A stretch of DNA of 30,425 bases from positions 1 through 30,425 of the IMG/VR virus record IMGVR_UViG_3300042455_000183; one strand, written 5' to 3'. This document shows positions 372-30,425 of the stretch, one piece after another (position 1 is the first letter of the stretch; each line of letters opens with the position of its first letter). A program made the translations under genes and the position numbers. Under the pieces are notes generated by a model that worked only from the letters and a program-made list of their open reading frames with translations, made no database searches and was not told the DNA's origin. The stretch comes from a virus.

Positions 372-797
372 TTACTCTTTATTAGAAGTAATAATATTAA
401 CCTTTATCTCAGAGATAGCTTCACCCTTAGTAGTAGTATCAACTCTCTCAGTTAGGTTGTTTAGTCTTTGAGTTATGGATGCATTGTACTGCCCAGTCAT
501 CCCTCCTTCAATCTGATCTTTGCGGATGGCTTCCTCTATGTGTGTACAGATTGTCGCATACTCAATATATCTTCCATCCGTATTAGCAAAATAATCTTGC
601 ACTGAACTACCATTCTCAGATGCATAACATCTAAAACCTACTTGAGTCAATGGTCTTTCTAGTGGGATAGCAGTTGCTTCGCCAGTCTTATTAGAAAGTG
701 AGTATTGAAATCTAGGATTAGCTTTGCACCAATCTCTGTAGGATACAAATAAGTCCCACATTGCCTCAGGGGTTGCTATGTATTTAGGCTTAGCCAT
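372..797 (-). CDS. terS: Terminase small subunit (DNA-packaging protein)
   Basis: The 141-aa protein fits the small terminase that recognises phage DNA and hands it to the large subunit. The central part contains conserved-looking words of Bacteroidota phage small terminases and P22 gp3-like packaging proteins (VQDYFANTDGRYIEYATIC, then GGMTGQYNASITQRLNNL at about residues 98-115). Size and position directly upstream of terL support the call. The start (MAKPKY) overlaps the end of the preceding 101-aa gene by 8 bp, suggesting coupled translation. Family membership is from recognition, not from a search. Confidence 0.82.
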   Translation of the reverse strand: MAKPKYIATPEAMWDLFVSYRDWCKANPRFQYSLSNKTGEATAIPLERPLTQVGFRCYASENGSSVQDYFANTDGRYIEYATICTHIEEAIRKDQIEGGMTGQYNASITQRLNNLTERVDTTTKGEAISEIKVNIITSNKE

Positions 798-1099: not shown

Positions 1100-1639
1100 T
1101 TAGTCTTTATACCTATATTGTATCTCTTTTATATTTTGTTTTATTTCTTTGATTAGAAAGAAAGCCGATGTGCTGTTGATGTCAAAGTACTTAGCCAGTG
1201 CTGTTTGTGTTGAGTGACCTTTGTCATAGTATGCCTCAAAGATAATCTTTTTAATTCTATCATCCAAAGAGTTACGATATATCTCTACCATTGCCTTCTT
1301 GAAATTATAGCTATCCTCTAGATTAACCTTGTGCTCAATGTCAGATGGATCATCTAGTGAGTCACCTAAGTATTCGTGTGACCTATAGATATCATCTTTC
1401 TTAGTTCGTGAGCCTTGAGTCCAGATTAACTCATACTTGATTGTGTTGAGTAGATAGCTCTTTGCTTTGTCTTCTGTAGCTTCTTCTATCTCTAGCTTAA
1501 CACAATGAAGGTAAGCATTGTTAATGACAGCATCAGCTTCTATAGAGCTAGGTATCTTGAGTCGTTGAATGAAGTGCTTAGTGTATTTGAGCACCTCTGT
1601 GTAGTTTTTTTGGATGTATTGGTCAAGCATTCTTTTCAT
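1100..1639 (-). CDS. Sigma-70-like (ECF-type) transcription factor, putative
   Basis: The 179-aa protein has the size and layout of a small sigma factor. An N-terminal helical half (residues 1-75) would correspond to region 2, which binds the -10 element. A middle acidic linker (90-110) follows, then a C-terminal helix-turn-helix-like segment (about 139-175: GHSTQTALAKYFDINSTSAF then a basic helix) resembling region 4. The codons at the very end contain the 12-base motif found before late genes, so it may direct transcription of the late units. The start used (MKRML) overlaps the previous gene by 17 bp; the internal ATG at 1630 is an alternative. Similarity is weak by eye; an unrelated HTH protein is possible. 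Confidence 0.55.
   Translation of the reverse strand: MKRMLDQYIQKNYTEVLKYTKHFIQRLKIPSSIEADAVINNAYLHCVKLEIEEATEDKAKSYLLNTIKYELIWTQGSRTKKDDIYRSHEYLGDSLDDPSDIEHKVNLEDSYNFKKAMVEIYRNSLDDRIKKIIFEAYYDKGHSTQTALAKYFDINSTSAFFLIKEIKQNIKEIQYRYKD
1111..1122 (-). promoter_or_regulatory. Late-type promoter motif, copy A
   Basis: TACAATATAGGT followed by AT, identical to copies B and E. It lies within the last codons of the sigma-like gene and 15 bases before the start of the 101-aa gene ahead of terS. Because the motif is conserved here without abutting a start codon, it behaves like a transcription rather than a translation signal. Confidence 0.6.
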
Positions 1640-3767: not shown

Positions 3768-4388
3768 TTATTTGTTATTTAATTGTTCAATATACTCATT
3801 GTAATACTCTGTACAAGCTGTTAGCCTCTCTCTAATGGATTCTTCTATAGAAGTGTTACGTTCATACCTTAGCACTGTTATTCTCTTTCTAGGGTCAATG
3901 TGAGATACTTTGTGGATAGATTTGTTATCCCAATCAGTAAGTAAGAAATCATCAGTGTCAATCATGCAGTAGATTAGCTCAGCTGATTCCTTGTCACATA
4001 GCATCATGTAGCCTCTCAATTGCCATTCATAGTCTTTGTTAATGCCTTCAGCTGATATAGCTGGGAACGTCTCTAAGGACCATGAAGTCTTAATGTCAAT
4101 AATTGAATTCTCTAAGATGATATCAGGTGTACCAATTAGGCAGTCATTCTCAATAGTTTCTTCATTCTTGATGTAGAATGAGTCTCTGATCTGATTAACT
4201 AACTCAATTGACTCATGCTCCCAGTCAGTGCCTTTCTGCATTGCTTTTGTAGAGATAAAAGAATTGTAGCCAAAGAAATCTTCTTTTGCTTTAGCTGCGA
4301 TATAAGACTTAGTAGTCTGACTCAATACTTCTGACTTAGTTCTAGACTCAGTCATTAATTTTCCTAGTGATGATGGATGCCATTTCAT
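3768..4388 (-). CDS. YqaJ-like PD-(D/E)XK exonuclease
   Basis: A 206-aa nuclease of the lambda-exonuclease/YqaJ type, expected to resect double-stranded DNA ends to leave single strands for the annealing protein. Visible motifs in order: an N-terminal W-E-H-E-S helix (about 56-60), GTPDII with D89, IDIKTS with D98 and K100 (the D-x-K catalytic core) and YEWQLRGYM with Q123. Length fits the family. It overlaps the upstream ERF gene by 4 bp (ATGA), the classic exonuclease/annealing-protein pair. The assignment rests on motifs and context. Confidence 0.85.
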   Translation of the reverse strand: MKWHPSSLGKLMTESRTKSEVLSQTTKSYIAAKAKEDFFGYNSFISTKAMQKGTDWEHESIELVNQIRDSFYIKNEETIENDCLIGTPDIILENSIIDIKTSWSLETFPAISAEGINKDYEWQLRGYMMLCDKESAELIYCMIDTDDFLLTDWDNKSIHKVSHIDPRKRITVLRYERNTSIEESIRERLTACTEYYNEYIEQLNNK

Positions 4389-4888
4389 AATGCTTGTAAT
4401 TGTTGTTTGGTTAATAAAAAATCTGATTTTAATTTTTCTGCTGTGTACTTGCCTGACTCAATTGACTTAAGAGCTTCTTTGAATCTGTCATCTGTTAGCG
4501 TTGGCTTAGTTGCTGATGCTACTGAGTTACCATCATCATCTACAGCTTGAAGGCTCAGAAGTGATTGAAGTGTAGCTCTTCTGTAGTAAGTCGTTGCACT
4601 AATCATTTTTTGTGGATCAATGTTGTCAGGTAGTGTTAACCATGACTCAATCATCTCACCTGACTCAATGTCAATTATCTGAGTGCTCAGAATCTTATCA
4701 TGGATAGGTTGTAATAGGAGCAGTCCATTCTCATGAAGGATTGGCTCAACTGTTTCTAGCAATGCGTTGATGTCAGCATAGCTCTTTTTAAAGTGAGGAT
4801 TGGTGCTGTTCTTAACAACCTTTCCAATGCTCATCTTTGCCTTGTGAATTTTAATCCACAATGACACTTTGGTTACTTCTGTTTGCAT
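4385..4888 (-). CDS. erf: ERF-family single-strand annealing protein
   Basis: A 167-aa recombinase that anneals complementary single strands during phage recombination. The ERF signature is clear: GKVVKN...NPHFKKSYADINALLE (about 22-45), VEPILHENGLLLLQP (48-61) and the DPQKMISATTYYRRATLQSLLSL region (91-113), then D-D-D-G-N (117-121). Slightly short compared with P22 Erf, as is usual for the compact form. It is the first gene after the strong early promoter at 4910-4939, 21 bp upstream, and is coupled to the exonuclease by an ATGA overlap. Confidence 0.9.
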   Translation of the reverse strand: MQTEVTKVSLWIKIHKAKMSIGKVVKNSTNPHFKKSYADINALLETVEPILHENGLLLLQPIHDKILSTQIIDIESGEMIESWLTLPDNIDPQKMISATTYYRRATLQSLLSLQAVDDDGNSVASATKPTLTDDRFKEALKSIESGKYTAEKLKSDFLLTKQQLQAL

Positions 4889-4909
4889 ATATATTTATTT
4901 AATTGTTTA

Positions 4910-4939
4910 CAAATGTAATAATAATTTTTAGTTGTGCAA
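4910..4939 (-). promoter_or_regulatory. Bacteroidota-type promoter for the recombination operon
   Basis: On the minus strand the -33 box TTG (4937-4939) and -7 box TACATTTG (4910-4917) are separated by 19 bases, the Bacteroidota consensus layout. Transcription would start near 4903, about 15 bases before the erf start codon. The -33 box lies in an inverted repeat (GTTG, two bases, CAAC; 4931-4940) that could be an operator. Confidence 0.75.
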
Positions 4940-4943
4940 CTAT

Positions 4944-5150
4944 TTAGAATAAAAATAATTGAATATACCACCATTTAGGCTCAATTATCTGTCCAATGTA
5001 ATCATCATCTGTATAGTCTTCACCATTCCAAATGACTTGAGTCACTTTGTATAGCTCAACTCCACCAAATGTATTGAGCTTGACTATGTCACCTACAAAG
5101 TAGCAGTCACCATCTTCTGTATCTTTAATCTTATCTCCTATTTTTAGCAT
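4944..5150 (-). CDS. Small protein of unknown function
   Basis: A 68-aa acidic, beta-rich protein. Words such as IGDKIKDTEDGDCYFVGDIV (residues 4-23) resemble a short phage domain I have seen without a function. The C-terminus is aromatic and hydrophobic (KWWYIQLFLF). It overlaps the VRR-NUC nuclease gene by 7 bp and is the last gene before the erf promoter. Confidence 0.65.
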   Translation of the reverse strand: MLKIGDKIKDTEDGDCYFVGDIVKLNTFGGVELYKVTQVIWNGEDYTDDDYIGQIIEPKWWYIQLFLF

Positions 5151-5617
5151 AGCAAAGTATTATACCATTCAACAAATGTATCAAAGTCTCTAGCAATGTA
5201 GTAGATACCTTTTGCACTCTCTATCTTTTGCTGATATTGTTTCTGTGCATCTGACTGTTTATCTTTACCATACTTTACTTCTATCTTGACTGACTTGCCA
5301 TTGATAGTAGCTGAGATGTCAGCAGTGCCCTTAGTGCCTTGACCTGGTGTCCACTTACCAGGTAGTTGTTTAGTGTATGCTATCTCACCAGTTCCTACTT
5401 GTATCTTATTACCTTCTCTGTATTGTCCCTGATTGCTAATTCTTTCAGCTTGATTTCCAGTAGCATTGATGTAAAAGATTATTGACTTAGTCAGGCTATT
5501 AGCTGAGTTATCTGACCATTCTGTAGATGGTAGATAGTTAGGATTCATACTAGGATACTTAACCTTAAGAGTCTCAAGCTCTAATGCTTTGAGTTTAGCT
5601 TTGTTTTCTTTGGTCAT
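5144..5617 (-). CDS. VRR-NUC-like nuclease
   Basis: A 157-aa protein whose C-terminal 65 residues carry a PD-(D/E)XK core of the VRR-NUC type: GTADIS with D100, a short beta hairpin, IEVK with E113 and K115, then Q125 in a helix, ending with a Y-I-A-R-D-F strand-helix typical of the family. Such phage proteins are proposed to be structure-specific endonucleases or Holliday junction resolvases. The N-terminal 80 residues are unassigned. The position between the replication and recombination modules fits. Confidence 0.72.
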   Translation of the reverse strand: MTKENKAKLKALELETLKVKYPSMNPNYLPSTEWSDNSANSLTKSIIFYINATGNQAERISNQGQYREGNKIQVGTGEIAYTKQLPGKWTPGQGTKGTADISATINGKSVKIEVKYGKDKQSDAQKQYQQKIESAKGIYYIARDFDTFVEWYNTLLC

Positions 5618-5754
5618 ATCTTGTGTATTTTATAAGGTGGATTTTGAATTAAGAAATCAAATTTATGCTTATTCACATACTTTTTTACCTTAGTAGGTGT
5701 GTAGTAAATTGGTTGTGGGTGCAGTATCTCAACTGCTTTTTGTAGATAATTCAT
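5614..5754 (-). CDS. 46-aa protein with an NPPY motif
   Basis: A short gene bounded on both sides by ATGA overlaps, so very probably translated. Residues 32-42 read KFDFLIQNPPY, the layout of motif IV of N6-adenine DNA methyltransferases (hydrophobic strand then N-P-P-Y). At 46 aa the protein lacks all other methyltransferase parts, so it is either a remnant or a chance match. No other function can be suggested. Confidence 0.65.
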   Translation of the reverse strand: MNYLQKAVEILHPQPIYYTPTKVKKYVNKHKFDFLIQNPPYKIHKI

Positions 5755-6086
5755 TTTATATTTATTTTATAAGATTCAAATTTCTGTTTTAACTGCTCAT
5801 TCTCTAGCTCCAAATACTTCAAGTGTGAGTGTATCTTATTAAAATGCTCTTGTATCATTAGCATCCTATTGTAAGTCTTCTCAAATCGCTTAATTATAGC
5901 CTCATTTGGTATCTCTTCATTCTGCTTCTTGATTAGATTTCTCTCGACATCAATTAACATTTCATTTAAAAAGTACTCACTTCTTTTATACTGAGCTTCT
6001 AAAATGTAGCTGATATCAACTTTCTCAAATGCTTGCTCCATTTCTTGAGTCTCTGCTAGTATTTGTTTTATATTTACGTGTTTCAT
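5751..6086 (-). CDS. Coiled-coil protein of unknown function
   Basis: A 111-aa, almost entirely helical protein. Charged heptad-like patterns are clearest at the C-terminus (about 85-107, HLKYLELENEQLKQKFES), predicting a coiled coil and an oligomer. It overlaps the helicase gene by ATGA, so it may be a helicase partner such as a loader; that is only contextual inference. Confidence 0.65.
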   Translation of the reverse strand: MKHVNIKQILAETQEMEQAFEKVDISYILEAQYKRSEYFLNEMLIDVERNLIKKQNEEIPNEAIIKRFEKTYNRMLMIQEHFNKIHSHLKYLELENEQLKQKFESYKINIK

Positions 6087-7561
6087 AATTTAGCCTTTTC
6101 ATTTAATTCGTCCCAAATATCAGGAATTACTTTTACAACTTCCTTCTCTCTCTTAATAAACATTATGTGTTTTAATCCATTTGGCTCACTATTATCAACT
6201 TCAATCTCAAAGAATTTAACATACTTATTGAATGCCTGAGTAAAAGCTGTTTTAGTTTTCAATCCATACTTTCCTACATTAGAATTGTAGTCATTAAATA
6301 ACTTCTCATAGTTGTACCAGTCATTGAATTTAAGACCTTGCAACTGGTTGTATAGTTCAATGTTAATCTCAGTCTGTAGCTTTTTTATAGGTAGTGAAAT
6401 TTTATCATAATCCATCAATCCATTCTGTAAGTATTTTTTAATACATTGTATCATGTAGCTGTCAAATCTTGCCCATTCTTGGTCATCCCAGTTATCAAAT
6501 AGCTTATGTCCAAAATAATGGATAGGAGTGTATTTTGAGTTAAAAAATGTACTAAGCTCAACTTCAAATTTTCTAGCATCATGCGAGCCACCTGAGCCTT
6601 TTAAAGTGTAATTTGTGGTAATTAAAATCTTAGGACTTTCAGAGATTGGTAGCTTAATTGTGTCAACACCTTTATAGGTGATGTCTATCCCCTCAGTAAT
6701 CTCAGAGAACAAGTTTTCAAATAAGAAATTCTTTTTAACATCATCATAAACAAGTATTTGAGTATCTGTCTTAACACTTGAGTATTTAAATTTGTCAGTA
6801 TGGTCAAAGAATTTACCATTTAAAGAGTGAACTTTCTTAAGGTGTTTCAATGCGTTCCAAAATAGACCTTTTCCACTTCTACCATTTGGCTCATCTGAGA
6901 TCATCTCATCATTTAGAATTATAGCTCTATTCTCGCATCCAATATTAAAAGAGTGAAGTAGATAACCAATGACCGACTGGAAGGTGTTGTACCTAGCAAC
7001 TGCTTGTTTATAGTTTTCAATCTCTTTTGAGTTAGGTTTGTCACTTAATGTGAAACCTCCTGAGATTAACCAAATGAAAGTTCTATATTCACTCTCATGA
7101 TGGTCACATTCTTTGTAGTCTCTATCTATAATTTGATCCTTCCAAACATTGATGTTTAAATCTTTATAGCTTTTAAGCTCAGTTTTCTCTTTTGTCACCT
7201 CTAAGATGCCATTTCTATAGTAAAGAAAACAACTACTAACAGTATCTTTTAGTAGATTAACCTTCTCAGTCTTTATCATTGATAGATAATCTCGCTTAAA
7301 CATTGATAGCTTAGAAGTTATCAAGTTAAAAACATTCTCATTAAAGTTGTTTTCTTGAATAAAATCTAGAATAAAATCTTTTATATCAATTTCATTAACA
7401 ATATTCAAAAATATACCATCTTTTTTTATGATATTAAAACTACTATTCTCATTAGGTTTATTCTTAAAATAGTTGTTTTTCTCTAAGAAGAGTTTAAACT
7501 GGTAGTTATTTATGTAATACTTACCATCTTGAGTCTTACTCCAAAATTCTTTATATTTCAT
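6083..7561 (-). CDS. SF3-type replicative helicase (phage D5-like)
   Basis: A 492-aa protein with a superfamily 3 helicase/AAA+ core in the middle: Walker A at about 224-233 (EPNGRSGKGLF), Walker B at 268-274 (QILVYDD), motif C at 311-318 (KILITTNY) and an arginine at 330 that could be the arginine finger. The N-terminal 200 residues have no visible primase catalytic motif, so a separate host or phage primase may be needed. It would unwind phage DNA at the origin. It is the first gene downstream of the putative origin and structured leader at 7577-7673. Codon use is more AT-rich than in the structural genes. Confidence 0.85.
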   Translation of the reverse strand: MKYKEFWSKTQDGKYYINNYQFKLFLEKNNYFKNKPNENSSFNIIKKDGIFLNIVNEIDIKDFILDFIQENNFNENVFNLITSKLSMFKRDYLSMIKTEKVNLLKDTVSSCFLYYRNGILEVTKEKTELKSYKDLNINVWKDQIIDRDYKECDHHESEYRTFIWLISGGFTLSDKPNSKEIENYKQAVARYNTFQSVIGYLLHSFNIGCENRAIILNDEMISDEPNGRSGKGLFWNALKHLKKVHSLNGKFFDHTDKFKYSSVKTDTQILVYDDVKKNFLFENLFSEITEGIDITYKGVDTIKLPISESPKILITTNYTLKGSGGSHDARKFEVELSTFFNSKYTPIHYFGHKLFDNWDDQEWARFDSYMIQCIKKYLQNGLMDYDKISLPIKKLQTEINIELYNQLQGLKFNDWYNYEKLFNDYNSNVGKYGLKTKTAFTQAFNKYVKFFEIEVDNSEPNGLKHIMFIKREKEVVKVIPDIWDELNEKAKL

Positions 7562-7576
7562 TTATTATTGTTAGAT

Positions 7577-7660
7577 AAAAAAAGCCTGTTAACTTTCGGA
7601 GGGCAGTCCTACTAATTAACAAGCTTTTACAATAATTCCTTTAAGTTCCTGCCCGAACTC
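7577..7660 (-). ncRNA. Putative kissing-loop RNA or attenuator upstream of helicase
   Basis: A predicted leftward RNA of about 84 bases. Hairpin 1 (7643-7660) has a 6-bp stem GAGTTC/GAACTT closing the hexaloop GGGCAG. Hairpin 2 has a 13-bp stem (7616-7628 with 7580-7592, one G-U pair), an inner GGA/TCC stem and the hexaloop CTGCCC (7601-7606), then a run of seven T (7577-7583). The two hexaloops are exact reverse complements, so the hairpins could kiss. A -7 box lies just upstream and would start the RNA at about the base of hairpin 1. It could be a free small RNA or an attenuator of the helicase gene, whose start is 16 bases downstream. Confidence 0.5.
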
Positions 7661-7665
7661 TGATG

Positions 7666-7673
7666 CAAATATA
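7666..7673 (-). promoter_or_regulatory. -7 promoter box before the structured leader
   Basis: TATATTTG matches the Bacteroidota -7 consensus TAnnTTTG exactly. The -33 position holds only T residues rather than TTTG, so the promoter is incomplete by eye. Its predicted start site near 7660 coincides with the first base of hairpin 1. Confidence 0.45.
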
Positions 7674-7975
7674 CTTATTAATTCAATGTAAAAAAAACTA
7701 TCCTAAAACTTTGTATAAACTTTCTAAAAGTCGGGGAGCATTTTCTTAGTGTCTATAAGGGATTCAAGTATGTTTCCTTACTTTCTGACTTTTTTTTACT
7801 TTATTTTTTTTAAAAACTCCTATACCTTTTTGAATTAAAAAATAGAAAAAAGTAGGGAAAAGTAGGGAAAAGTGTCTCAATCCTTTATGTAGTATAGGTT
7901 TTAGCTTCCCCACTTTTAAAAAGTTTTAGGATAGTTTTCTGTTTTTTACTACTAAAAGTCGGTAAAAGTCGGTAA
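7674..7975. other. Putative replication origin with inverted repeats and iterons
   Basis: This stretch, part of a 390-bp gap, is very AT-rich. Perfect 19-bp inverted repeats (7694-7712 and 7920-7938) face each other across 207 bp. Inside and beside them are short direct repeats: TAAAAGTCGG at 7725-7734, 7953-7962 and 7963-7972, and AGTAGGGAAA in tandem at 7851-7870. It lies between a DnaA-domain-IV-like gene and a helicase gene, the classic place for an origin with initiator-binding iterons and an unwinding element. No ORF is supported. A terminator or recombination site is an alternative. Confidence 0.5.
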
Positions 7976-8350
7976 AATCTCCCTATATTGGTCATTCTCT
8001 ATCCTCTCCTTAATGATTCTCAAATCAGTTGTGTTGTTACATTTCATAACATCCTCAAAGATAGAGTACTTAGGTAGGTCAACTGGTCTATCACTAGGAT
8101 AGAGATAGTATTTAATCTCAGCTATAGCATCATCATAAATCTTGTCACAATTTTGAAATTGATTGTCTACATTAAGTCCATGCATGACAGTGACGTGATC
8201 CTTTTCAAGCATTCTACCTATTTCTGACAAGTTCAATCCTAATTTTTTTAGCTCAGAAAATAAATAGTATCTTTTATAAACTATCCCTCTACTTCTTTTT
8301 GTACTGATTAGATTGTGAAGTTCAATCATGTATTTGATTTTTTCTATCAT
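7952..8350 (-). CDS. DnaA domain IV-like DNA-binding protein
   Basis: A 132-aa protein with a segment (about residues 28-60) resembling the origin-binding domain IV of DnaA: a helix RYYLFSELKKLGLN, then LSEIGRMLEKDHVTVMHGL, which matches the DnaA signature of the form IGR...DH-T-V-H. The ATPase domain is absent, so it would be an origin-recognition or transcription factor rather than a full initiator. Its 3' end runs into the repeats of the putative origin, two of which encode its C-terminal PTFTDF. Its start overlaps the methyltransferase stop by ATGA. Confidence 0.65.
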   Translation of the reverse strand: MIEKIKYMIELHNLISTKRSRGIVYKRYYLFSELKKLGLNLSEIGRMLEKDHVTVMHGLNVDNQFQNCDKIYDDAIAEIKYYLYPSDRPVDLPKYSIFEDVMKCNNTTDLRIIKERIENDQYREILPTFTDF

Positions 8351-9696
8351 AATTTAAATTTTGAAATAATTAATTCTAAACATTTTACTACGATGCTGTT
8401 ACCAGCTTGTTTGTATGCTTGTGAGTCACTTACAACTGAAAAATCAAACGTATCAGGAAAATCCATTAAACGAAAACATTCACGAGGGGTTAGTCTACGG
8501 ATTTTGTAGCCATCCCATAATCTACGGTCATTATTTTGTGCATGTCTTGCTTTAAGTGCTGGACATTCATCGTGAATACTTTGATTGTAAGTATCTAACA
8601 TTTTAATTTCTCCTATTTTTAATTGATTTTTCTCAATTGTTTGATTCAATCTTTTGTCATTATACCTAATAACTGGCTGTCCACTACCATCTTCTCTTGC
8701 TCTTGCTGGTATAGTAGGACAATTGCCATCTTCAATCTCTCTAAATCCTTGACCATCTTTGTGTGTTCTCCAGGTGCCAACCATCACACCTTGACTACAA
8801 GCTGTGTCAAGAGTCTGTGCTACTTCTTTACCAACTCTACCCCTTCTAGTATCTGAGGATGCAAAACCAAAATTAATAGAGTCACCTTCAGTAGCTTCTT
8901 CGTATCCTTTTGCTGTGCCTGATTTTACTTTAAGATACTGTTGATCACGTCCACCCATTTTAAAATATGCAGCGTGAATACATGCACTATTGTTAGGATT
9001 TTCACTTTTTATAATTGGGTTTTTGTGATGTTTTAAAACTTCAATCATTTTCTCACTCAAAAAATACTTATCATCAACATCATTCTCAAGAACATCTTTC
9101 AGTCTAGTAGTCAAATGCTCTTCTTTCGGAAATTGAAAATGGTTGTCAACATCATCTCTGATACCAATCAAGAATACTCTCTCTCTATTTTGTGGCACAT
9201 TGTAATGTTTAGCATTAATTACCTTCCAGTACAAGTGATAAGGTACAGCATAATCTGTAGGGAAAATAGTAGGAGCACCATTAATAGATTTTCCACCTAA
9301 ATAATTTATCCATTCTTGAAATGTATTTCCATTGTCATCTGAAAGTAAGCCTTTAACATTCTCAAAAATGAAATAACGTGGTTTATTTACTTGAATAAAT
9401 TCGTGAGAGTTAAAGAATAACACACCTCTCTTATCATCCTTACCTAATCTCTTACCTGCCAAACTAAATGCTTGACATGGTGGTGAAGTCATGTAGATGT
9501 CAAGTGACTCAGATGGTATCTCTCTATCATAAACATTTTTAGGATAGTATTTTGGCTCACCATAGTTGTGAATAAAAGTCTGTCTAGCATACTTGTCCAT
9601 GTCACATGCGAATACTTCTTCAAAGTCAATACCTAATCTATTTAGAGCCTGATTAAATGCTCCTACTCCACTAAAATCACTTCCTACCTTTATCAT
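8347..9696 (-). CDS. DNA (cytosine-5) methyltransferase
   Basis: A 449-aa enzyme that transfers a methyl group from S-adenosylmethionine to carbon 5 of cytosine. All key motifs are intact: motif I DFSGVGAF (7-14), catalytic PCQ with C74, ENV with E112, QNRERVF (169-175), a long target-recognition region (about 190-390), then IRRLTPRECFRLMDFP and QAGNSI near the C-terminus. No restriction endonuclease gene is adjacent, so it is probably a solitary phage methyltransferase that protects phage DNA. It overlaps both neighbours by ATGA. Confidence 0.95.
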   Translation of the reverse strand: MIKVGSDFSGVGAFNQALNRLGIDFEEVFACDMDKYARQTFIHNYGEPKYYPKNVYDREIPSESLDIYMTSPPCQAFSLAGKRLGKDDKRGVLFFNSHEFIQVNKPRYFIFENVKGLLSDDNGNTFQEWINYLGGKSINGAPTIFPTDYAVPYHLYWKVINAKHYNVPQNRERVFLIGIRDDVDNHFQFPKEEHLTTRLKDVLENDVDDKYFLSEKMIEVLKHHKNPIIKSENPNNSACIHAAYFKMGGRDQQYLKVKSGTAKGYEEATEGDSINFGFASSDTRRGRVGKEVAQTLDTACSQGVMVGTWRTHKDGQGFREIEDGNCPTIPARAREDGSGQPVIRYNDKRLNQTIEKNQLKIGEIKMLDTYNQSIHDECPALKARHAQNNDRRLWDGYKIRRLTPRECFRLMDFPDTFDFSVVSDSQAYKQAGNSIVVKCLELIISKFKL

Positions 9697-13077: not shown

Positions 13078-14387
13078 AGTGCTGGTGTTTCGATTGGTAT
13101 TACGTCACCACCTTCAATTGGTGGTAAAGATGCAAGTGACCTAACTTCATTAGGAGTCATTGCATTGAGTACTTTTGTAGCCACCAATGGACTAAGTGAG
13201 TTGATTGCGTCAGCTGTTTTAGATGCGTCACCTTCAATCTCAACAATTGTCTCATTGATGATTTGAAAGTTGTTGATAGTGTATTCACCTGGTATCTTTG
13301 CGATCTCCAAAAGTTCATTAACTATCTCCTCAACTTGAACTCTCAATGGCATGACAACATTTTTCTCAAATATGACGTATGCTTGCTTAATATCAGCTCC
13401 TCCACCTAATGATCCAGTAGTGCGAACACCCATAAGGATAGGGTCAATGGTGTGAGCAAAGCAAATTTGTTCTGTGTTTAATGCTGAGGCTTCGTGAAAC
13501 AGCTTATCATTGCCATTTGTAGGTAGTGATTCTATTTTTGGTAATTGGTCAGCACTATTAGCAAAGAATGCAACTGCCTTACCAGCATTAGCCGCACCTT
13601 TCAACCTATCAATTGTGTGCTTAATCATTGACTTCTCCTCCTCTGACTGTGGACGTTTTGGAAACATCATAGCAAATGAAGGAAAGACACTATTTTGAAT
13701 ATTACTCTTTGCAAAATAGCTAAGCTCACCACTAAGGAAAGCAAAATTTAGAGCACTTGTGTACTGTGGCAATGGATACCATTCCTGACCTAGTGTCATA
13801 ATCTCATAGACATACAACTGCTCTAGGTCTGAATTAGTAGGATGGTATTTTTTTATAGGTGTTACATCAATTCTAGCTGACCAATCATCACATAAAAAAT
13901 ATGTCTGCTTATCTCTAGCTATTCTGACCTTCTCAGGTGATACATTATATATCTTGTACAGCTCTCTCTTTGCATTGTAGCACAATTTAAAGTAAACTCT
14001 GTGATGTACAGTCAACTGCTGAGCTATTGCTCTCTCTACTTTGCCAAGTTTAATTTTTTTCTCAAATGTATAGAGCTTGAGCTTGTCCTCATTGGTCATT
14101 CCTTCACTCTTAAGAACGTATCCTCCACCTACTACTGAGTTGGTCTTAAAGTCTACAATTGCACCATGCAAAGGTGATGTATAGTAAAGCTGATTAAGTA
14201 GCTCAGGGAACATATTATCCTGACCAAATGGGATGTAGCCAGCTATTTGGTATCTACCATTAACATAAGGGAGTGACAAGTTAGCGTCACCTACTCTACC
14301 GAATGGTGTAGAGAAAGACTGATAGCCTTCTACTACTTCTGTTGTTGTCTGAGGCTTAGTGCCTATGAATCTGTTATACCAAGCCAT
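13074..14387 (-). CDS. Portal protein
   Basis: The 437-aa protein matches the portal of siphophages by size and layout. After MAWYNRFIG come a DNMFPELLNQLYYTSPLHGAI region, a VHHRVYFKLCYN region, a hydrophobic segment near 215-225, a long helix at about 250-275, then TIDPILMGVRTTGSLGGGAD (about 330-350), typical of the stem/crown part of portals. It forms the dodecameric ring for DNA entry. It overlaps the 111-aa neck-like gene by one base and the adaptor by 4 bp. Confidence 0.85.
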   Translation of the reverse strand: MAWYNRFIGTKPQTTTEVVEGYQSFSTPFGRVGDANLSLPYVNGRYQIAGYIPFGQDNMFPELLNQLYYTSPLHGAIVDFKTNSVVGGGYVLKSEGMTNEDKLKLYTFEKKIKLGKVERAIAQQLTVHHRVYFKLCYNAKRELYKIYNVSPEKVRIARDKQTYFLCDDWSARIDVTPIKKYHPTNSDLEQLYVYEIMTLGQEWYPLPQYTSALNFAFLSGELSYFAKSNIQNSVFPSFAMMFPKRPQSEEEKSMIKHTIDRLKGAANAGKAVAFFANSADQLPKIESLPTNGNDKLFHEASALNTEQICFAHTIDPILMGVRTTGSLGGGADIKQAYVIFEKNVVMPLRVQVEEIVNELLEIAKIPGEYTINNFQIINETIVEIEGDASKTADAINSLSPLVATKVLNAMTPNEVRSLASLPPIEGGDVIPIETPAL

Positions 14388-14722
14388 TAGTCATAAATTG
14401 AATTAATAATTGGACCAGCCACTACAAGCCTTCCCTCTTCAATCATGTTCAATCCAATTGGATCTAATGTAGGAGTAGAGCTTTCATAGACCTTATACCT
14501 GTACTGACCTTTAATAAAGTCAATGTCGATAGGGTCTTCAATAGTGAATAGGTTAAATCTTGAGGGCCACAATGAAGTGTCAGCACCTTGCCAGTATATT
14601 GGGTTGGGTGTTGTATTAAACTCATCCTCAAACTCAAATAAATAGTAAGCATTTGATAGTGTTGTGACCTCAGTTAAGGTCAGCACAAAGCTATTAGTTG
14701 AGTCTTTCTCAAGATATATCAT
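14387..14722 (-). CDS. Neck-region structural protein, unknown
   Basis: A 111-aa beta-rich protein starting MIYLEKDSTNSFVLTLTE. A longer frame reaches 14779, but it would run through a terminator and the late motif, so the ATG at 14722 directly after the motif is chosen. I recall similar proteins beside portals in flavobacterial phages without a known function. It is the first gene of the portal-lysis transcription unit. Confidence 0.72.
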   Translation of the reverse strand: MIYLEKDSTNSFVLTLTEVTTLSNAYYLFEFEDEFNTTPNPIYWQGADTSLWPSRFNLFTIEDPIDIDFIKGQYRYKVYESSTPTLDPIGLNMIEEGRLVVAGPIINSIYD

Positions 14723-14734
14723 ACCTATATTGTA
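14723..14734 (-). promoter_or_regulatory. Late-type promoter motif, copy B
   Basis: TACAATATAGGT directly followed by the ATG of the 111-aa gene. Only about 30 bases separate it from the T-run of the terminator upstream, so transcription must restart within this space. An mRNA from here would have almost no leader. Confidence 0.7.
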
Positions 14735-14753
14735 TGACACGAAAATTTTAATT

Positions 14754-14782
14754 AAAAAAAAAGCCTTACATTTCTGCAAGGC
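14754..14782 (-). terminator. Strong intrinsic terminator after the tail-tube gene
   Basis: GCCTTGCA pairs with TGTAAGGC (14775-14782 and 14763-14770; one G-U) around a GAAA tetraloop, followed by nine T (14754-14762). Confidence 0.88.
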
Positions 14783-14807
14783 CTCTTTATCTATGGAGAA
14801 GAATAGA

Positions 14808-15344
14808 TTATGGAGCTGGTGTAATTAAAGCAGCAACTACAGACTCTTCAATTTGGTAAGCTAAAAATTCATTCTCTGCAAGTAGTGTAATGGAATATTT
14901 AGAACCATCCGCGCGAGCTGTACCAGAACCTTCACCAGTAGCAGTTAACTGCAAGTAAGGAAAGAACCAATATAAGCCATTAGCATCTTGAACAATACCA
15001 CTTAAGTATTGCTGACCTGAGCCTAACACCTTGATAGCACTAGACTTGATTGACTCACGTCTGTGAAACATTAGGTTAATAGTCTGAGTCACAAATGAAG
15101 AGCCGTTGATTAAGTCAATGTTTGACTCCTCAGTATAGCTTGAAGTGTTACGTCTGAATTCAAACTCAATAAATGGATCAGCTCCACCTACTAAGTCTAA
15201 AGTGTCAATCAAGTAATCATCAGCTGGATCAACTGACAATGTAGTCATGTCAACATTGTCTTGTTGATTGACGTAAAATTTATAGATACCACCAGTGTTG
15301 TTGTCACAAGACTTTTGGATCGTTTGGAGTGCATCACATGCCAT
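14808..15344 (-). CDS. Major tail (tube) protein, putative
   Basis: A 178-aa beta-rich protein with an early C-D-N-N-T-G-G-I-Y-K-F-Y pattern (13-24), a middle DPFIEFEFRRNTSSYTEE segment, VTQTINLMFHRRE (about 85-97) and a Gly/Ser loop before SKYSITLLAENEF. This fits tail-tube proteins of Bacteroidota siphophages. Terminators on both sides suggest its dosage is set separately from capsid and portal. Confidence 0.65.
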   Translation of the reverse strand: MACDALQTIQKSCDNNTGGIYKFYVNQQDNVDMTTLSVDPADDYLIDTLDLVGGADPFIEFEFRRNTSSYTEESNIDLINGSSFVTQTINLMFHRRESIKSSAIKVLGSGQQYLSGIVQDANGLYWFFPYLQLTATGEGSGTARADGSKYSITLLAENEFLAYQIEESVVAALITPAP

Positions 15345-15364: not shown

Positions 15365-15394
15365 GAAAAAATAGGAGGACACTTACTGCCCTCC
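15365..15394 (-). terminator. Intrinsic terminator between capsid and tail tube
   Basis: GGAGGGCA (15387-15394) pairs with TGTCCTCC (15374-15381; one G-U), loop of five, then TATTTTTT. The downstream tail-tube gene has no visible late motif, so leaky termination probably sets the capsid to tube ratio. Confidence 0.75.
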
Positions 15395-15404
15395 ATTATT
15401 AATG

Positions 15405-16340
15405 TTAGTCAAAACATACATTGTATACAACAATCTCTGCAGGGTTTGTGTAGTGGAAACCAGCTTTCATGTTAGCACGAGTTCTCAAGTAAGGCTCAGC
15501 TACAGTGTCAGATAAGTTCACAGCTCTCAATGCTTTTGAGTCACCTTCAGCATCAAATGCGTATACTAGGTTGTTTTTCAAAGTCAATACGATAGTGTTG
15601 TCAGGCATACCTTCACATACTACTACATTGATTCCTAAGAATGTCAAGCCTAATGGTAAAGTCACATAAGTTTGTGTGTTACCTTGTGCTGCTTTCAACT
15701 CATAAGCATTAGCTACATTTGTTGATACATACAATCTTAATTCTGATTTTTTACGTACAATTGAAGCTGGTGCAGCGTTAACTACAGCCTCTAATACTGT
15801 CAATACATTTGAAGTAGAGATAGCTCCTGAATATAAACCAGCTGCTAAGCCTTCATCACCACATAATTGAACTAAGTAACCATTACAAAGGCCTAACAAT
15901 GCATCTTCTGATGCGATATCACCTTGCCATCTTAACAACTCTAAGTCTTGACCAATAACATTAGCCATTTCATTCCAGTAGTAAGACATAAAAGATGCTA
16001 CAGTGAAGTCACCATTTGAGCCTTGAGACATTTGAAGAGCTAAGAAAGACTGCTCTAAGTCAAATTGACAAAGTTGAGCCATAGCTGATAAAGGACATAC
16101 ATCAATGTCAATAGCATCTAATGAGTCAGTAGGAGCATTGAAGTTACAAGTAGATGCTTGTAATAAGCTACCAAAAGTTACATTAGCTAACTTAGTTTTG
16201 CTTTTGATACCTGGTAAAGTTCTAAAGTTGTTAGCAATATCAGGGCTAGATAAATAAGCCTTAGAGTAAAACTCATCTGGGTTTGCACACAAAAGTGCAT
16301 TTGTTTCGATGTCTAGATCGAATTTTAGGTTACGTGTCAT
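15405..16340 (-). CDS. Major capsid protein
   Basis: The 311-aa protein has the size, composition and position (directly after the protease-scaffold, one base apart) of an HK97-fold major capsid protein. Supporting stretches are an N-terminal arm (to about 60), the LEQSFLALQMSQGSNGDF helix region (about 95-112), a long central helix, then RLYVSTNVANAYE (about 202-214) and TFLGINVVVCEGMPDNTIVL (about 233-252), the strand pattern of the P and A domains. The C-terminus HYTNPAEIVVYN is typical. No signal or membrane segment. Confidence 0.82.
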   Translation of the reverse strand: MTRNLKFDLDIETNALLCANPDEFYSKAYLSSPDIANNFRTLPGIKSKTKLANVTFGSLLQASTCNFNAPTDSLDAIDIDVCPLSAMAQLCQFDLEQSFLALQMSQGSNGDFTVASFMSYYWNEMANVIGQDLELLRWQGDIASEDALLGLCNGYLVQLCGDEGLAAGLYSGAISTSNVLTVLEAVVNAAPASIVRKKSELRLYVSTNVANAYELKAAQGNTQTYVTLPLGLTFLGINVVVCEGMPDNTIVLTLKNNLVYAFDAEGDSKALRAVNLSDTVAEPYLRTRANMKAGFHYTNPAEIVVYNVCFD

Positions 16341-16341
16341 T

Positions 16342-17298
16342 TTATTTTGATTTTGAAAATTTTACAAATTCTTTAAATTTTTCGTGTGCAGTTAATGCAA
16401 CACTAGCTACTTCTTCTTCAGTCTCTACCGCTATAGATTCTTCAATTTGATTTTTTAATCCAGCTATCATAGCAATAACTGAATTCATGTGCTCCTCTAA
16501 TAAAGGACGTACAATAGCAATAATAGCTTCAGCATCTACAGCTGGGTCAATAGCCATAGCTACTTCTTCTGTTTCAGCTTCTTCTGTAGCTTGAGCCTCA
16601 GCATCAGCCACTTCTTCTTCCACAGCTGGATCAACTGATAACTCAGCCTCCATTTCTGTAGGTAAATCTTTAATCTCAACAACTTCTCCGTCAGCTATGA
16701 CATAGATTTTGTCTCCGATTACATGCTCTCCGTCAGGTAATTTCATAGTATTTAATTTAATTTGTTCCGATAATTTCATGCCAAGAAAGCCCTCAATAGA
16801 ATAACCAATTTGACCAGACTCTACAAGCTCATCATAGTAAGCTCTATCTGTCACTTGACTATTCAACATCAATGTACCTTTTGGTACTTCAATGCCATAA
16901 GTTGTGAATGCCTTGTCAGTTTTAGGACTATCAACTATCCAAGCCTCTAGGATGTATGCTGGTACTTTTTGTTCAGCATTATGCTCTAGATTAAAGATGT
17001 CCTTGTTTTGTAGATTCTGCATGAACTTAGAATGAATAGCCTCAATTACTTCTTCTGTGAATTGAACATCATACTCCTCACCATCCTCATCTTTACGATA
17101 GATGTTCATAGGAATCATTGCTGGTGCAACAACTCTCATTTTAACATCATCCTTGAAAGCCATAGCTACATGAGAATTGAATGCCATACCTTTAACCTTT
17201 ATAGCTGGCTTAGATGTGAAAGCAATCATTTCTATGCCTAAGTTTTCACCGTCAGCATACTCATCCTCAATTGTAATTTTATAGACTGGTCTATCCAT
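16342..17298 (-). CDS. XkdF-type prohead protease fused to scaffold
   Basis: A 318-aa protein with two parts. Residues 1-175 match the XkdF/S78-like serine protease fold: NLEHN with H106, EAWIVDSPKTDKAF (about 118-131), IEVPKGTLM, then GYSIEGF with S167 as the probable nucleophile. The second part (about 210-318) is strongly acidic (runs of Glu, Ala, Val) and helical, as in scaffolding domains. The fused product would chaperone capsid assembly and then cleave itself and the capsid arm. It begins straight after late motif copy C and is followed by the capsid gene. Confidence 0.82.
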   Translation of the reverse strand: MDRPVYKITIEDEYADGENLGIEMIAFTSKPAIKVKGMAFNSHVAMAFKDDVKMRVVAPAMIPMNIYRKDEDGEEYDVQFTEEVIEAIHSKFMQNLQNKDIFNLEHNAEQKVPAYILEAWIVDSPKTDKAFTTYGIEVPKGTLMLNSQVTDRAYYDELVESGQIGYSIEGFLGMKLSEQIKLNTMKLPDGEHVIGDKIYVIADGEVVEIKDLPTEMEAELSVDPAVEEEVADAEAQATEEAETEEVAMAIDPAVDAEAIIAIVRPLLEEHMNSVIAMIAGLKNQIEESIAVETEEEVASVALTAHEKFKEFVKFSKSK

Positions 17299-17310
17299 GC
17301 CTATATTGTA
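17299..17310 (-). promoter_or_regulatory. Late-type promoter motif, copy C
   Basis: TACAATATAGGC immediately before the protease-scaffold ATG; only the last base differs from the common form. It sits in the 44-bp divergent gap facing the plus-strand genes, so no minus-strand readthrough is needed. Confidence 0.65.
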
Positions 17311-17318
17311 AAAGTTCT

Positions 17319-17326
17319 TATATTTG
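17319..17326 (+). promoter_or_regulatory. -7 box for the plus-strand gene pair
   Basis: TATATTTG fits TAnnTTTG and lies 16 bases before the ATG at 17343. No good -33 box is visible at the usual distance. Confidence 0.4.
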
Positions 17327-17342
17327 TTAAAAATTAAAATCT

Positions 17343-17888
17343 ATGGTAACAATATTAGGCAAAGAAGTACCTAATCAATTGAATGAGTTAACGGTACAAC
17401 AGTTTGAAACAATCACCACTATTCATGGTAAAGTAGAACTGGATGCAATTGACAAGCATTTAGAAGTGTTTGAATTCTTAGGAGTTCCTACTATTGACTT
17501 TGATGCAGTTGAGATTGAAGAATTTAAAGAAATAGTAAGAGCTTTCAATGAGATTCAATCAAAGCCTGAGCTAGTGAACACACTAGAAATGGATGGTTAT
17601 ACTTATGTTGCATTTGATGACAAGTTCAAACTATCAGTAAAAGACACTAAGCACATTGAGAAAATCATGAACTCTAGACACAAAGGCTATATCTCAGAAA
17701 TGTTAGCAGTGTTATTCAAACGTACTGACTTAACAAAAGCTGAGCACTATGTAGATGCACACATCAAACTGAAAGCTAAGTTAATTAGAGAGTTGAAAGC
17801 TGAGCTAGCAGTTCCATACCTGGTTGAAATTGGTCAGAAGTTATCTAAACAAATACCAAAAGATGCACCTACCGAAATCATGGAGTGA
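17343..17888 (+). CDS. Tail assembly chaperone-like protein 1
   Basis: A 181-aa helical, acidic protein. It starts MVTILGKEVPNQLNELTVQQFETI, a pattern of small phage proteins that I take to be tail assembly chaperone-like. It appears paralogous to the next gene: both have a L-T/I-V-Q-F/Y helix, an acidic segment ending EIEEF or DIEEV, a middle strand pair and a helix Y-I-S-E-M-L-A-V-L-F-K-R against H-I-G-H-I-A-S-I-V-Y-R-Q. With its partner it is on the strand opposite all other late genes, next to the protease-scaffold. The function is inferred from context and remote similarity. Confidence 0.5.
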   Translation: MVTILGKEVPNQLNELTVQQFETITTIHGKVELDAIDKHLEVFEFLGVPTIDFDAVEIEEFKEIVRAFNEIQSKPELVNTLEMDGYTYVAFDDKFKLSVKDTKHIEKIMNSRHKGYISEMLAVLFKRTDLTKAEHYVDAHIKLKAKLIRELKAELAVPYLVEIGQKLSKQIPKDAPTEIME

Positions 17889-18594
17889 AATAGATGTCTT
17901 TCAATACAAAGAAGTAAGAGATTTATATAGCATTGAAGAAGTATTTAGTAGAGAAATTGAGATACTATCCGCACTAGCAGATATAAACTCTGAAGACATT
18001 GAAGACTTAGATATTGAAGAAGTTACTGTGATGCTTGCTGATATCAAGTACATTAATTCAGAGCCTTCTAAGAACTTTAAAAGACAGCTTGATGACTACC
18101 ACTACAAGCCACTAGATAAGTTAACCATTGGTGAGTACATTGACCTTGAGTTCTACTTCTCAAAGGACTACAATAAGCATATTGGTCACATTGCATCCAT
18201 TGTTTATAGACAAAAATCCACAAATGAATGGGGTGTGACTATCTATGAGCCGTATGCCTTCAGTCCAAGAGATAGACATGAGCTGTTTGATGAGTATAAA
18301 ATCAATGATATCTATGGAATTGTACCTGAGTTCATATCTTTTAGAGAAAACTTCATGGACACCTACGGCAACCTATTCCATGATGAGAGTGATAGTGATG
18401 AGGAAGAGGATAAGCCTACTACTTCTCAGGAGTCTAAGGACTTAAAGCTCAAGAAAAGTGAAATGAAATGGGGATGGGAAAGATTAATCTACAGCCTATG
18501 CAATGAAGACTTGACTAAATTTGATGATGTCACCAACTTACCACTAATTATGACCTTCAATATGTTAGCCATGAAGAAGGAACTTAATTTATAA
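17863..18594 (+). CDS. Tail assembly chaperone-like protein 2
   Basis: A 243-aa protein with the start taken at the ATG at 17863 (MHLPKSWSEIDVFQYKEV); an upstream TTG at 17824 would lengthen it. LPKSW...Q-Y...ILSAL..I (about 3-40) is typical of small phage proteins beside tail genes. A long acidic stretch (SDSDEEEDK, near 180) separates a C-terminal helical part with a WGWERLIYSLCNED segment. The overlap with the first gene is 26 bp in the +1 frame, so a classic -1 slip joining the two is not possible. It shares its stop region with the converging gene at 18589. Confidence 0.5.
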   Translation: MHLPKSWSEIDVFQYKEVRDLYSIEEVFSREIEILSALADINSEDIEDLDIEEVTVMLADIKYINSEPSKNFKRQLDDYHYKPLDKLTIGEYIDLEFYFSKDYNKHIGHIASIVYRQKSTNEWGVTIYEPYAFSPRDRHELFDEYKINDIYGIVPEFISFRENFMDTYGNLFHDESDSDEEEDKPTTSQESKDLKLKKSEMKWGWERLIYSLCNEDLTKFDDVTNLPLIMTFNMLAMKKELNL

Positions 18595-21807: not shown

Positions 21808-21819
21808 AACTATATTGTA
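21808..21819 (-). promoter_or_regulatory. Late-type promoter motif, copy D
   Basis: TACAATATAGTT directly before the fibre ATG, one or two bases different from copies A, B and E, in a 29-bp gap after the tail-terminator-like gene. Confidence 0.6.
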
Positions 21820-21836
21820 TTAAGATGGTAAATTAG

Positions 21837-22580
21837 TTATAAGATAGGGTTGACTTCAAACGCTTCAAAAATGCTACCCTCCTCGATTGTGTAAGTACCG
21901 AAAGGGCAAGGGGTGTCTTCGGATAGAGTAGCTTGTAAAGTTGTTGGAGAAGCTATACCTGTACTGACAATCCATTCATTATCTATAAACTCTATCCATA
22001 CACCAGTTATAGGTGTAGGAGGTTCATTTATATAAAAAGGTAAAAAGCTTCCAGACCTATCTTTCTCAACATCCACCGTAACAGGCTCTCCACCTACTAA
22101 AGTGTAAGTAACTGATATAGTGTCACAACCTACCACTACTGGCAACTTAAGAGGCACTTGACAATTAGTCCAGTTACTGATGTCAACATCTAAGGTCATC
22201 ACCCATCCAGCCGCATAGTCAAGTAGTTGGTTATTCAATGGAGTAATTGATGGTGAGCCAACGATATCAAAGCTATAATCATTGCTAAAATTGAAATAGT
22301 TGATTAAGTCTACCAATATCTGATGACAGTCTGAGAGTATCACTGTAATGTTAGCTCTGTCTTTTTGAATGATATCTAAGCAATACACCTCTAAACTGAT
22401 AGTGTTCACATCCATTGTAGTAGATGCCACAATTGGAGTAATAAATACTAAAGGATACCTCTCATCCTTAGTAGCAAAGTTAGGAAGTTGCTCATTGAAG
22501 TCACTACCTACTTTCTTAACTTGTAGGTGATCGTTGTAAAATGCTTCAATCTTGTTTATTAGTGCTTGATAACTGGTCAT
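21837..22580 (-). CDS. Tail terminator-like protein with extra C-terminal domain
   Basis: A 247-aa protein. Residues 1-150 (MTSYQALINKIEAFYNDHLQ..., FATKDERYPLVFITPI, LEVYCLDIIQKDRANI, LLDYAAGWVMTLDVDI) match the pattern of tail terminator proteins of Bacteroidota phages. Residues 155-247 are an added beta-rich domain with three cysteines. It overlaps the tape measure start by 4 bp. Confidence 0.65.
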   Translation of the reverse strand: MTSYQALINKIEAFYNDHLQVKKVGSDFNEQLPNFATKDERYPLVFITPIVASTTMDVNTISLEVYCLDIIQKDRANITVILSDCHQILVDLINYFNFSNDYSFDIVGSPSITPLNNQLLDYAAGWVMTLDVDISNWTNCQVPLKLPVVVGCDTISVTYTLVGGEPVTVDVEKDRSGSFLPFYINEPPTPITGVWIEFIDNEWIVSTGIASPTTLQATLSEDTPCPFGTYTIEEGSIFEAFEVNPIL

Positions 22581-29433: not shown

Positions 29434-29445
29434 ACCTATATTGTA
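29434..29445 (-). promoter_or_regulatory. Late-type promoter motif, copy E
   Basis: TACAATATAGGT then the ATG of the 499-aa tail gene. The motif lies in the 29-bp gap after the large terminase stop and would begin the tail transcription unit. Confidence 0.68.
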
Positions 29446-29462: not shown

Positions 29463-30425
29463 TTAGAAGGATAGATAGCTGTCATCTGTATAGTATTCCT
29501 TCTTGATGTAGGTTGCTGCGTACCTGATAGCATCCATTGCATCATCCCAAAGTTTGACTGGCTCATCTGTAATTGTGTCCCCTATTTTCTTCCACTTATA
29601 ATTCTCGTATTCCTTTTTGATAGCAGGATGGTCTTCACAGAATACACCGAAGGTCTTAATGTTATCTATCCCTTGCTTGACTACCTTGTTAGCATTCTCA
29701 ATGTAATAGCCAGCTCTATCAATTTCAGCTATTGTCTCAGGCCTAGAGTAGTCAGCTAAAATGTTGATGCTCTTCTCAATTCCTAACTGATCCATTCTTG
29801 CGATTAGGTCAGTAGTTGTTAAGTAGCTTTCATAGATGACTGGCTCAATGTATATGTCTTTATCTCTCCAGTATACTCTTACCAATGCTGTAGGGTGATT
29901 ATAACCAAAGTCTAAGCCATAGACATAGGATGTGAACTTAGCTGGTCTATGTTTGACAAATGACCAATTGCTGTAGATGTTGCTTTTGCTGATAGCTTTC
30001 TCTCCTAGTGCATAGATTTGATACTGTGCCTCATCTGTTCTCTTCAAGTCTTCAATCTGTCGCTTGATGCTCTCAGGTAGGAAGGGATTGTCTTTGTAGG
30101 TAGATTTAATCAGTATTGATTCCTCAGCTGGTAGCTCATACAGCCACGAGTTAGACTCTGAAGGATTGTAGTCAAAGATTAGCTTTCCTTCTGTCCTCAT
30201 GTTTAGCTGAGTGAAGTCATCATAGTACAGCTCATTAGCTTCATTACACCATGCAAGGTCACGCTTTCTACCTCTAATCTTCTGCTCATCATCCACTGAG
30301 AAAAATTCAACTATAGAGCCATTATTAAAGGTATAGATGTGCTCTGACTTGTTATGTCTAGCCACGTCATAAATCTCAAGTGTCTTCATAATTTCTAAGA
30401 AGTCTCTCATCACTGTAGCTCTCAA
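29463..30425 (-). CDS. terL: Terminase large subunit, C-terminal part
   Basis: The remaining 320 residues of the 383-aa large terminase (start at 316). In full-length numbering: a Walker B-like segment with the catalytic acid near 124-128 (LAWCNEANEL), an ATPase coupling motif FDYNPSE (about 147-153), and a C-terminal RuvC-like nuclease with D235 in GLDFGYNHPTA, D288 in ILADYSRPE and D361 near WDDAMDAIRYA. The layout resembles XtmB/PBSX-type terminases. It lacks its own start only because the circle is cut here. Confidence 0.92.
   Translation of the reverse strand: MRATVMRDFLEIMKTLEIYDVARHNKSEHIYTFNNGSIVEFFSVDDEQKIRGRKRDLAWCNEANELYYDDFTQLNMRTEGKLIFDYNPSESNSWLYELPAEESILIKSTYKDNPFLPESIKRQIEDLKRTDEAQYQIYALGEKAISKSNIYSNWSFVKHRPAKFTSYVYGLDFGYNHPTALVRVYWRDKDIYIEPVIYESYLTTTDLIARMDQLGIEKSINILADYSRPETIAEIDRAGYYIENANKVVKQGIDNIKTFGVFCEDHPAIKKEYENYKWKKIGDTITDEPVKLWDDAMDAIRYAATYIKKEYYTDDSYLSF
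30299..30425. repeat. Terminal overlap, copy 2 (circular closure)
   Basis: Exact copy of bases 1-127. It lies inside the large terminase gene; the same codons are read in both copies. One copy should be removed before calculating genome size or gene counts. Confidence 0.95.

Follow-up and report, generated by a model that had tools for sequence, protein, structure and literature searches.

Five proposed bipartite late promoters, probably read by a phage-encoded sigma-like protein, in the genome of an uncultured phage

Five exact copies of the 10-mer TACAATATAG are found in the window (the whole stretch of DNA analysed here, 30,425 nucleotides, IMG/VR record IMGVR_UViG_3300042455_000183), all on the minus strand (leftward) and with no exact copy on the plus strand. 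Reading from the sequence, we conclude with good confidence that each copy forms the -10 part of a bipartite late promoter of the phage, most likely used by the host core polymerase together with a phage sigma-like protein. We draw here on several direct observations: the motif itself, its conservation, its two-part geometry, its variable gap to the start codon, its clade-wise change, and the sigma-like fold of a protein whose gene is linked to it. A previous, sequence-only reading of this DNA had reported five leftward copies, and each was found on the minus strand at the position it gave.

An exact 127-bp terminal repeat (1-127 = 30299-30425), which lies inside the gene for the terminase large subunit (terL), indicates that the genome, and therefore the count of five, is complete. 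The record is classed as linear, yet this repeat marks a complete circular genome of ~30.3 kb. Table 1 lists the features, for which the terminase, the head protease (unit C) and the portal protein (downstream of B) were named via family searches. Copy A precedes the gene for the terminase small subunit (terS), terS leads into terL across the circular join, copy E follows terL, and copies D, C and B head further late units. The early region (4385-9696) encodes an ERF recombinase, a protein with a DnaA C-terminal HTH, and a C5 cytosine methylase. The host probably belongs to the Bacteroidota; the sole grounds for this placement are the host-type promoters and distant terminase matches to phages that include those of Flavobacterium and Bacteroides. 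GTDB genomes searched for the host with the capsid and sigma-like proteins yielded no relative; INPHARED held no relative of the capsid, tape measure or sigma-like protein, and its terL matches were only ~33% identical.

Table 1. Coordinates of the candidate promoters and associated features in the window
Feature	Position	Strand	Context	Basis
Copy A core, TACAATATAGGT	1111..1122	-	In the last codons (..IQYRY..) of ORF 1100-1639; predicted +1 at 1110	
Copy A upstream (-35-like) element, AAACAAA type	1135..1145	-		Alignment of sites and relatives
Copy B core	14723..14734	-	Adjoins ATG of ORF 14387-14722, then portal gene	
Copy B upstream element, TTTTTAATTAA type	14747..14757	-		Site alignment
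Terminator-like hairpin, then T tract	14757..14788	-	Directly upstream of copy B	Hairpin search
Copy C core	17299..17310	-	Adjoins ATG of ORF 16342-17298 (head protease), then capsid gene	
Copy C upstream element, TTTTTAACAAA type	17323..17333	-		Alignment of sites and relatives
Copy D core, TACAATATAGTT	21808..21819	-	Adjoins ATG of ORF 20017-21807	
Copy D upstream element, TTATAACTAA type	21832..21842	-		Alignment of sites and relatives
Copy E core	29434..29445	-	Adjoins ATG of ORF 27934-29433, directly after terL	
Copy E upstream element, TTCTAATTGAA	29458..29468	-	Overlaps terL stop codon (TTC TAA), also in relatives	
Sigma-factor-like protein, 179 aa	1100..1639	-	Proposed reader of the five promoters	Structure models, fold search, profiles
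Terminase small subunit (terS)	372..797	-	Downstream of copy A	Family searches
Terminase large subunit (terL), C-terminal part	29463..30425	-	N-terminal part 2-322 across the circular join	

The full 12-mer TACAATATAGGT is present at three of the five copies (1111, 14723 and 29434), while the 10-mer is followed by GC at 17299 and by TT at 21808. In 1000 dinucleotide shuffles of the window, exact copies of TACAATATAG averaged 0.11 (maximum 3) against the five observed, and copies followed by NN-ATG averaged 0.002 against four. The expectation that a genome-wide count would return these sites only held for exact matches; when one mismatch was allowed, a single further site was added, at 25931-25940 on the plus strand.

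The same arrangement is strongly conserved before the corresponding genes of related phages, as the sequence-only reading had suggested should be checked. In 80 loci (848 kb) fetched by the capsid protein alone, TACAATATAG occurs 170 times exactly in the sense orientation, 169 of them with NN-ATG after it, and never in antisense, which speaks against scattered copies in unrelated coding sequence. When 80 loci were fetched with the ORF 1100-1639 protein, only three did not show copy A, and each of these has its gene match truncated by a contig end. A scan of viral contigs with the motif alone recovered further contigs in which distant relatives of ORF 1100-1639 stand right at the motif; single matches in large, apparently unrelated viral contigs are taken to be chance. 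Although the word is short and AT-rich, the shuffle counts, the strand bias in relatives and the unrelated flanks of the five sites exclude chance or the recent duplication of one segment as its origin, and we treat that explanation as practically negligible.

For 12 whole genomes from five clades, we located homologues of the downstream genes by profile and read the DNA upstream of them without using the motif. It stands before B, C and D and behind the sigma-like gene in all 12, and before E except in clade 4, where a promoter is retained in the usual context after terL though the next gene is D rather than E. In these 12 genomes it was never found before the portal, capsid, tape measure or terS genes. 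The common motif is thus limited to late transcription units, and it is distinct from the primary promoter of the host phylum that we infer, both as expected of a phage sigma system. The gene that follows copy A (1093-1110) differs among relatives: in L244 and others it is replaced by a small ORF whose ATG adjoins the motif, and the motif stays.

The core differs between clades, changing together at most sites: it reads TACAATATAG, nnTAATATAG or nACAATATAA. In a more distant clade, whose loci were fetched by its own capsid protein, TATAATATAG followed by NN-ATG occurs 91 times in sense with no exact antisense copy, and variants there include TTTAATATAG and AGTAATATAG. In the third clade, with the promoter ACAATATAA, four of the five sites read nACAATATAA, one of them being the copy within the sigma-like gene (where it changes Arg to Lys); in the fourth, nnTAATATA precedes a G, T or A. 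Parallel shifts of this kind at several unlinked sites are the expected result if the sites have one reader in common and that reader changed. In the fourth clade, copy A follows the sigma-like gene at a distance of ~50 to 60 bases, outside its codons, so it is not kept only for the amino acids it encodes in the window, and coding constraint as the cause of copy A is excluded.

We aligned deduplicated sites with unrelated flanks (coding end, stop codon, terminator, intergenic), which brought out a second element 13 to 23 bases 5′ of the core, reading TTnTAAYnRAA in the window's clade and of TAAACA type in others. A looser AAC/T element upstream of all five copies had been noticed in the initial reading; it is indeed present at each and was seen again in relatives. 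With numbering from the A of the ATG (+1), positions -12 to -1 are taken up by the core T-A-C-A-A-T-A-T-A-G-G-T, and the second element falls at about -35 to -29 (TTnTAAY in the window's clade, TAAAC in others); a candidate promoter with its core at -12 and an element at -35 has normal sigma geometry. Across the 12 whole genomes, the general two-part pattern was found 59 times in sense and 3 times in antisense; shuffled sequence gave a mean of 0.2 to 0.6 per genome. A scan of generic sigma70 -35/-10 elements gave background level only.

Re-reading the window gave the same picture as before of four copies adjoining an ATG, each with a gap of two bases, and a copy A with no adjacent ATG. Across relatives the gap between core and start codon is mostly 2 nt, in some cases 3 or 4, and far larger at copy A, and some of the starts are GTG; the spacing between the two elements, meanwhile, is constant within one or two bases. 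The variable distance to the start codon marks the unit as a promoter rather than a ribosome-binding signal, and the proposal that the conserved unit is a transcription signal gains further from the retention of copy A without an adjacent ATG. The fixed two-base gap in most copies could instead mark a translation initiation signal just before the start codon, which we consider highly improbable: copy A and one relative's D site keep the motif without an adjacent ATG, gaps of 3 and 4 and GTG starts occur, only operon-leading genes have the motif (those for portal, capsid, tape measure and terS have none), and the Kozak-like signal of Flavobacterium favours A at -3 (PMC6847099), where the motif mostly has G. 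A ribosome-binding role was rejected on the variable gap, the copies without ATG and the restriction to operon-leading genes.

Transcription is expected to begin at the start codon itself, so that four of the five mRNAs would have no leader or almost none. From the -12 register of the core we predict leaderless messages at B to E and a leader of ~15 nt at A, where the ATG is at 1095; under this prediction the copy A message, unlike the others, would not be leaderless. In F. johnsoniae, the host-type promoter TAHHTTTG, the primary promoter of Bacteroidota, has T at -12 and A at -11, followed by TTTG (PMC6847099). The TA of TACAAT shares this T-12 A-11 register and the rest of the phage core does not match it, with ATATAGG in the phage against TTTG in the host (PMC6847099). 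This fits the earlier remark that the motif is unlike TAnnTTTG, all intergenic minus-strand copies of which are in the early region of the window.

The best candidate for the reader is the product of ORF 1100-1639, which fold matches, and sequence-profile matches that are weak yet full-length, suggest to be sigma-like. Structure models of it are all-helical, with a mean pLDDT of 70 and 81, and with a pTM of ~0.4 that leaves the arrangement of the parts uncertain. Foldseek searches of the PDB with both models returned almost only sigma factors, with a best probability of 1.00 and E-values above 1e-3 (best 2.5e-3). Twelve of the 44 family members give a match to the NCBIfam sigma70-ECF model TIGR02937, the best at E 1.3e-5; for the window protein the match covers residues 5-170 with an E of 0.008 and 15.8 bits, under the curated cut-off of 42.9 bits. 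A profile comparison with seven ECF sigma factors, which left out loci L428 and L429 (plasmids of pathogenic species, sigma gene stretches only), was collinear but weak (E 0.009, probability 4%). Searches of Pfam, PHROG and PDB sequences with the protein or profiles gave nothing significant for sigma factors. As no family model reaches its curated cut-off with this protein family, we do not file it in any named sigma family.

The profiles also bear on a different role, in which the protein would be a late activator of the RinA/Ltr type that binds upstream DNA and aids a host sigma factor instead of replacing it. A RinA model weakly matches 13 of the 44 members (best E 0.0014; the window protein scores 13.5 bits against a cut-off of 31.9), and the gene has the genome place of Ltr regulators, at the end of the early cluster and directly 5′ of the terS promoter, and carries target sites at its own 3′ end (PMC13123087). 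However, the sigma models score better (E 1.3e-5) and cover nearly the whole length of the window protein. The RinA and Ltr proteins of Gram-positive phages are activators at one promoter, where Ltr proteins use several repeats 5′ of it, whereas the window has five promoters and no cluster of upstream repeats near copy A, and here the -10 region itself is common to all five and unlike the host consensus. We therefore regard an activator of this type as unlikely.

A sigma-like reader is also in keeping with the linkage of gene and motif. All 20 record searches of near-complete relatives, in which one record was searched twice, turned up exactly one sigma-like gene, so that none of these relatives lacked it, and the 12 genomes that were analysed whole carried the motif. 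The motif might instead be read by an alternative sigma factor of the host or by a different polymerase, given that the core resembles a sigma70-type -10 hexamer (TACAAT/TATAAT) and that no gene for an RNA polymerase was recognised in the searched set of window proteins. Nevertheless, the motif differs from one phage clade to the next and a sigma-like gene was found in each of the near-complete relatives tested, so that no outside reader is needed, and we consider one distinctly improbable.

With the sigma-like protein as reader, we infer a mechanism in which host-type TAnnTTTG promoters would drive the early genes, including ORF 1100-1639, and the product of this ORF would have sigma activity, join the host core RNA polymerase, bind the motif and redirect the polymerase to the five bipartite promoters. 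Five leftward units, late in timing, would then start: terminase from A, the tail region from E and D, protease and capsid from C, and portal onward from B. Transcription would begin at or beside the start codon, with RNA ends that give leaderless messages at B to E and the ~15-nt leader at A.

Phage T4 has a small sigma factor of its own, gp55, and a late -10 element dedicated to it, TATAAATA; T4 late transcription needs coactivation by the clamp, and T4 late promoters have no -35 element. The window resembles it in pairing a small phage sigma-like protein with a dedicated late -10 element, and would differ from it on both of those latter points. The closest analogues, in our best reading, are the phage sigma systems of phiEco32 and 7-11 (PMC8948821, PMC4331800). 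The sigma-like protein SaPh711_gp47 of phage 7-11 guides the host polymerase to late promoters of bipartite form, GTAAtg-(16)-aCTA, of which eight were identified; these had eluded computational prediction until experiments mapped them (PMC8948821), which calls for caution here. The likeness lies in a phage-encoded sigma-like protein and bipartite promoters before late genes (PMC8948821), and is drawn from the promoters and the description of the system; the motif is different, the host of 7-11 is proteobacterial, and no fixed register between motif and start codon is described in the passages considered (PMC8948821). For phiEco32, the same source gives middle/late promoters of the form tAATGTAtA for the sigma factor gp36, with start sites 6-8 bp downstream (PMC8948821). 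Here too a phage encodes a sigma factor whose promoter element is highly conserved (PMC8948821), although it is a single element without a -35 part, and a profile comparison of our protein with gp36 detected no similarity.

Our literature searches found no paper on this phage group, nor on a Bacteroidota-phage sigma factor with mapped late promoters. With chances that we put somewhat short of even, the family could be an unrecognised one of minimal phage sigma factors, with probable Bacteroidota hosts, in which the core runs into the start codon, so that the switch to late transcription would double as one to leaderless translation, and one promoter lies in the last codons of the sigma gene itself. 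Among hundreds of related uncultured contigs, a small sigma-like protein varies along with its promoter, a natural series on which sigma specificity can be tested directly. Leaders longer than 10 nt are found on 87% of the F. johnsoniae transcripts that have a probable promoter (PMC6847099). Should the leaderless reading be right, these phages would supply a well-delimited group of late messages that lack leaders, in a phylum without Shine-Dalgarno sites whose messages mostly have leaders.

Some individual sites have features of their own. At promoter C (17311-17342), a host-type -7 element, TATATTTG (17319-17326, plus strand), overlaps the promoter on the opposite strand and stands 17 nt before a divergent gene pair that begins at 17343. 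At this site CAAATATA is kept in genomes of all clades examined, once as CAAATTTA, which is still TAnnTTTG; it is possible that the region is a two-way promoter with early/late exclusion. The pair itself (17343-18594, plus strand) lies within the late minus-strand region and has the same orientation in the more distant clade (locus L129); no family match was found for either gene, and from their position we suspect tail assembly chaperones. The claim that copy B restarts transcription just after a strong terminator agrees with the terminator-like hairpin read there from 14788 to 14757, and in most relatives examined a GGGGCTTTTTTT-type or GGGGCTTTTTT-type sequence occupies the position of this hairpin. 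A second terminator-like hairpin (15374-15394, minus strand) comes just after the capsid gene (ORF 15405-16340), upstream of ORF 14808-15344.
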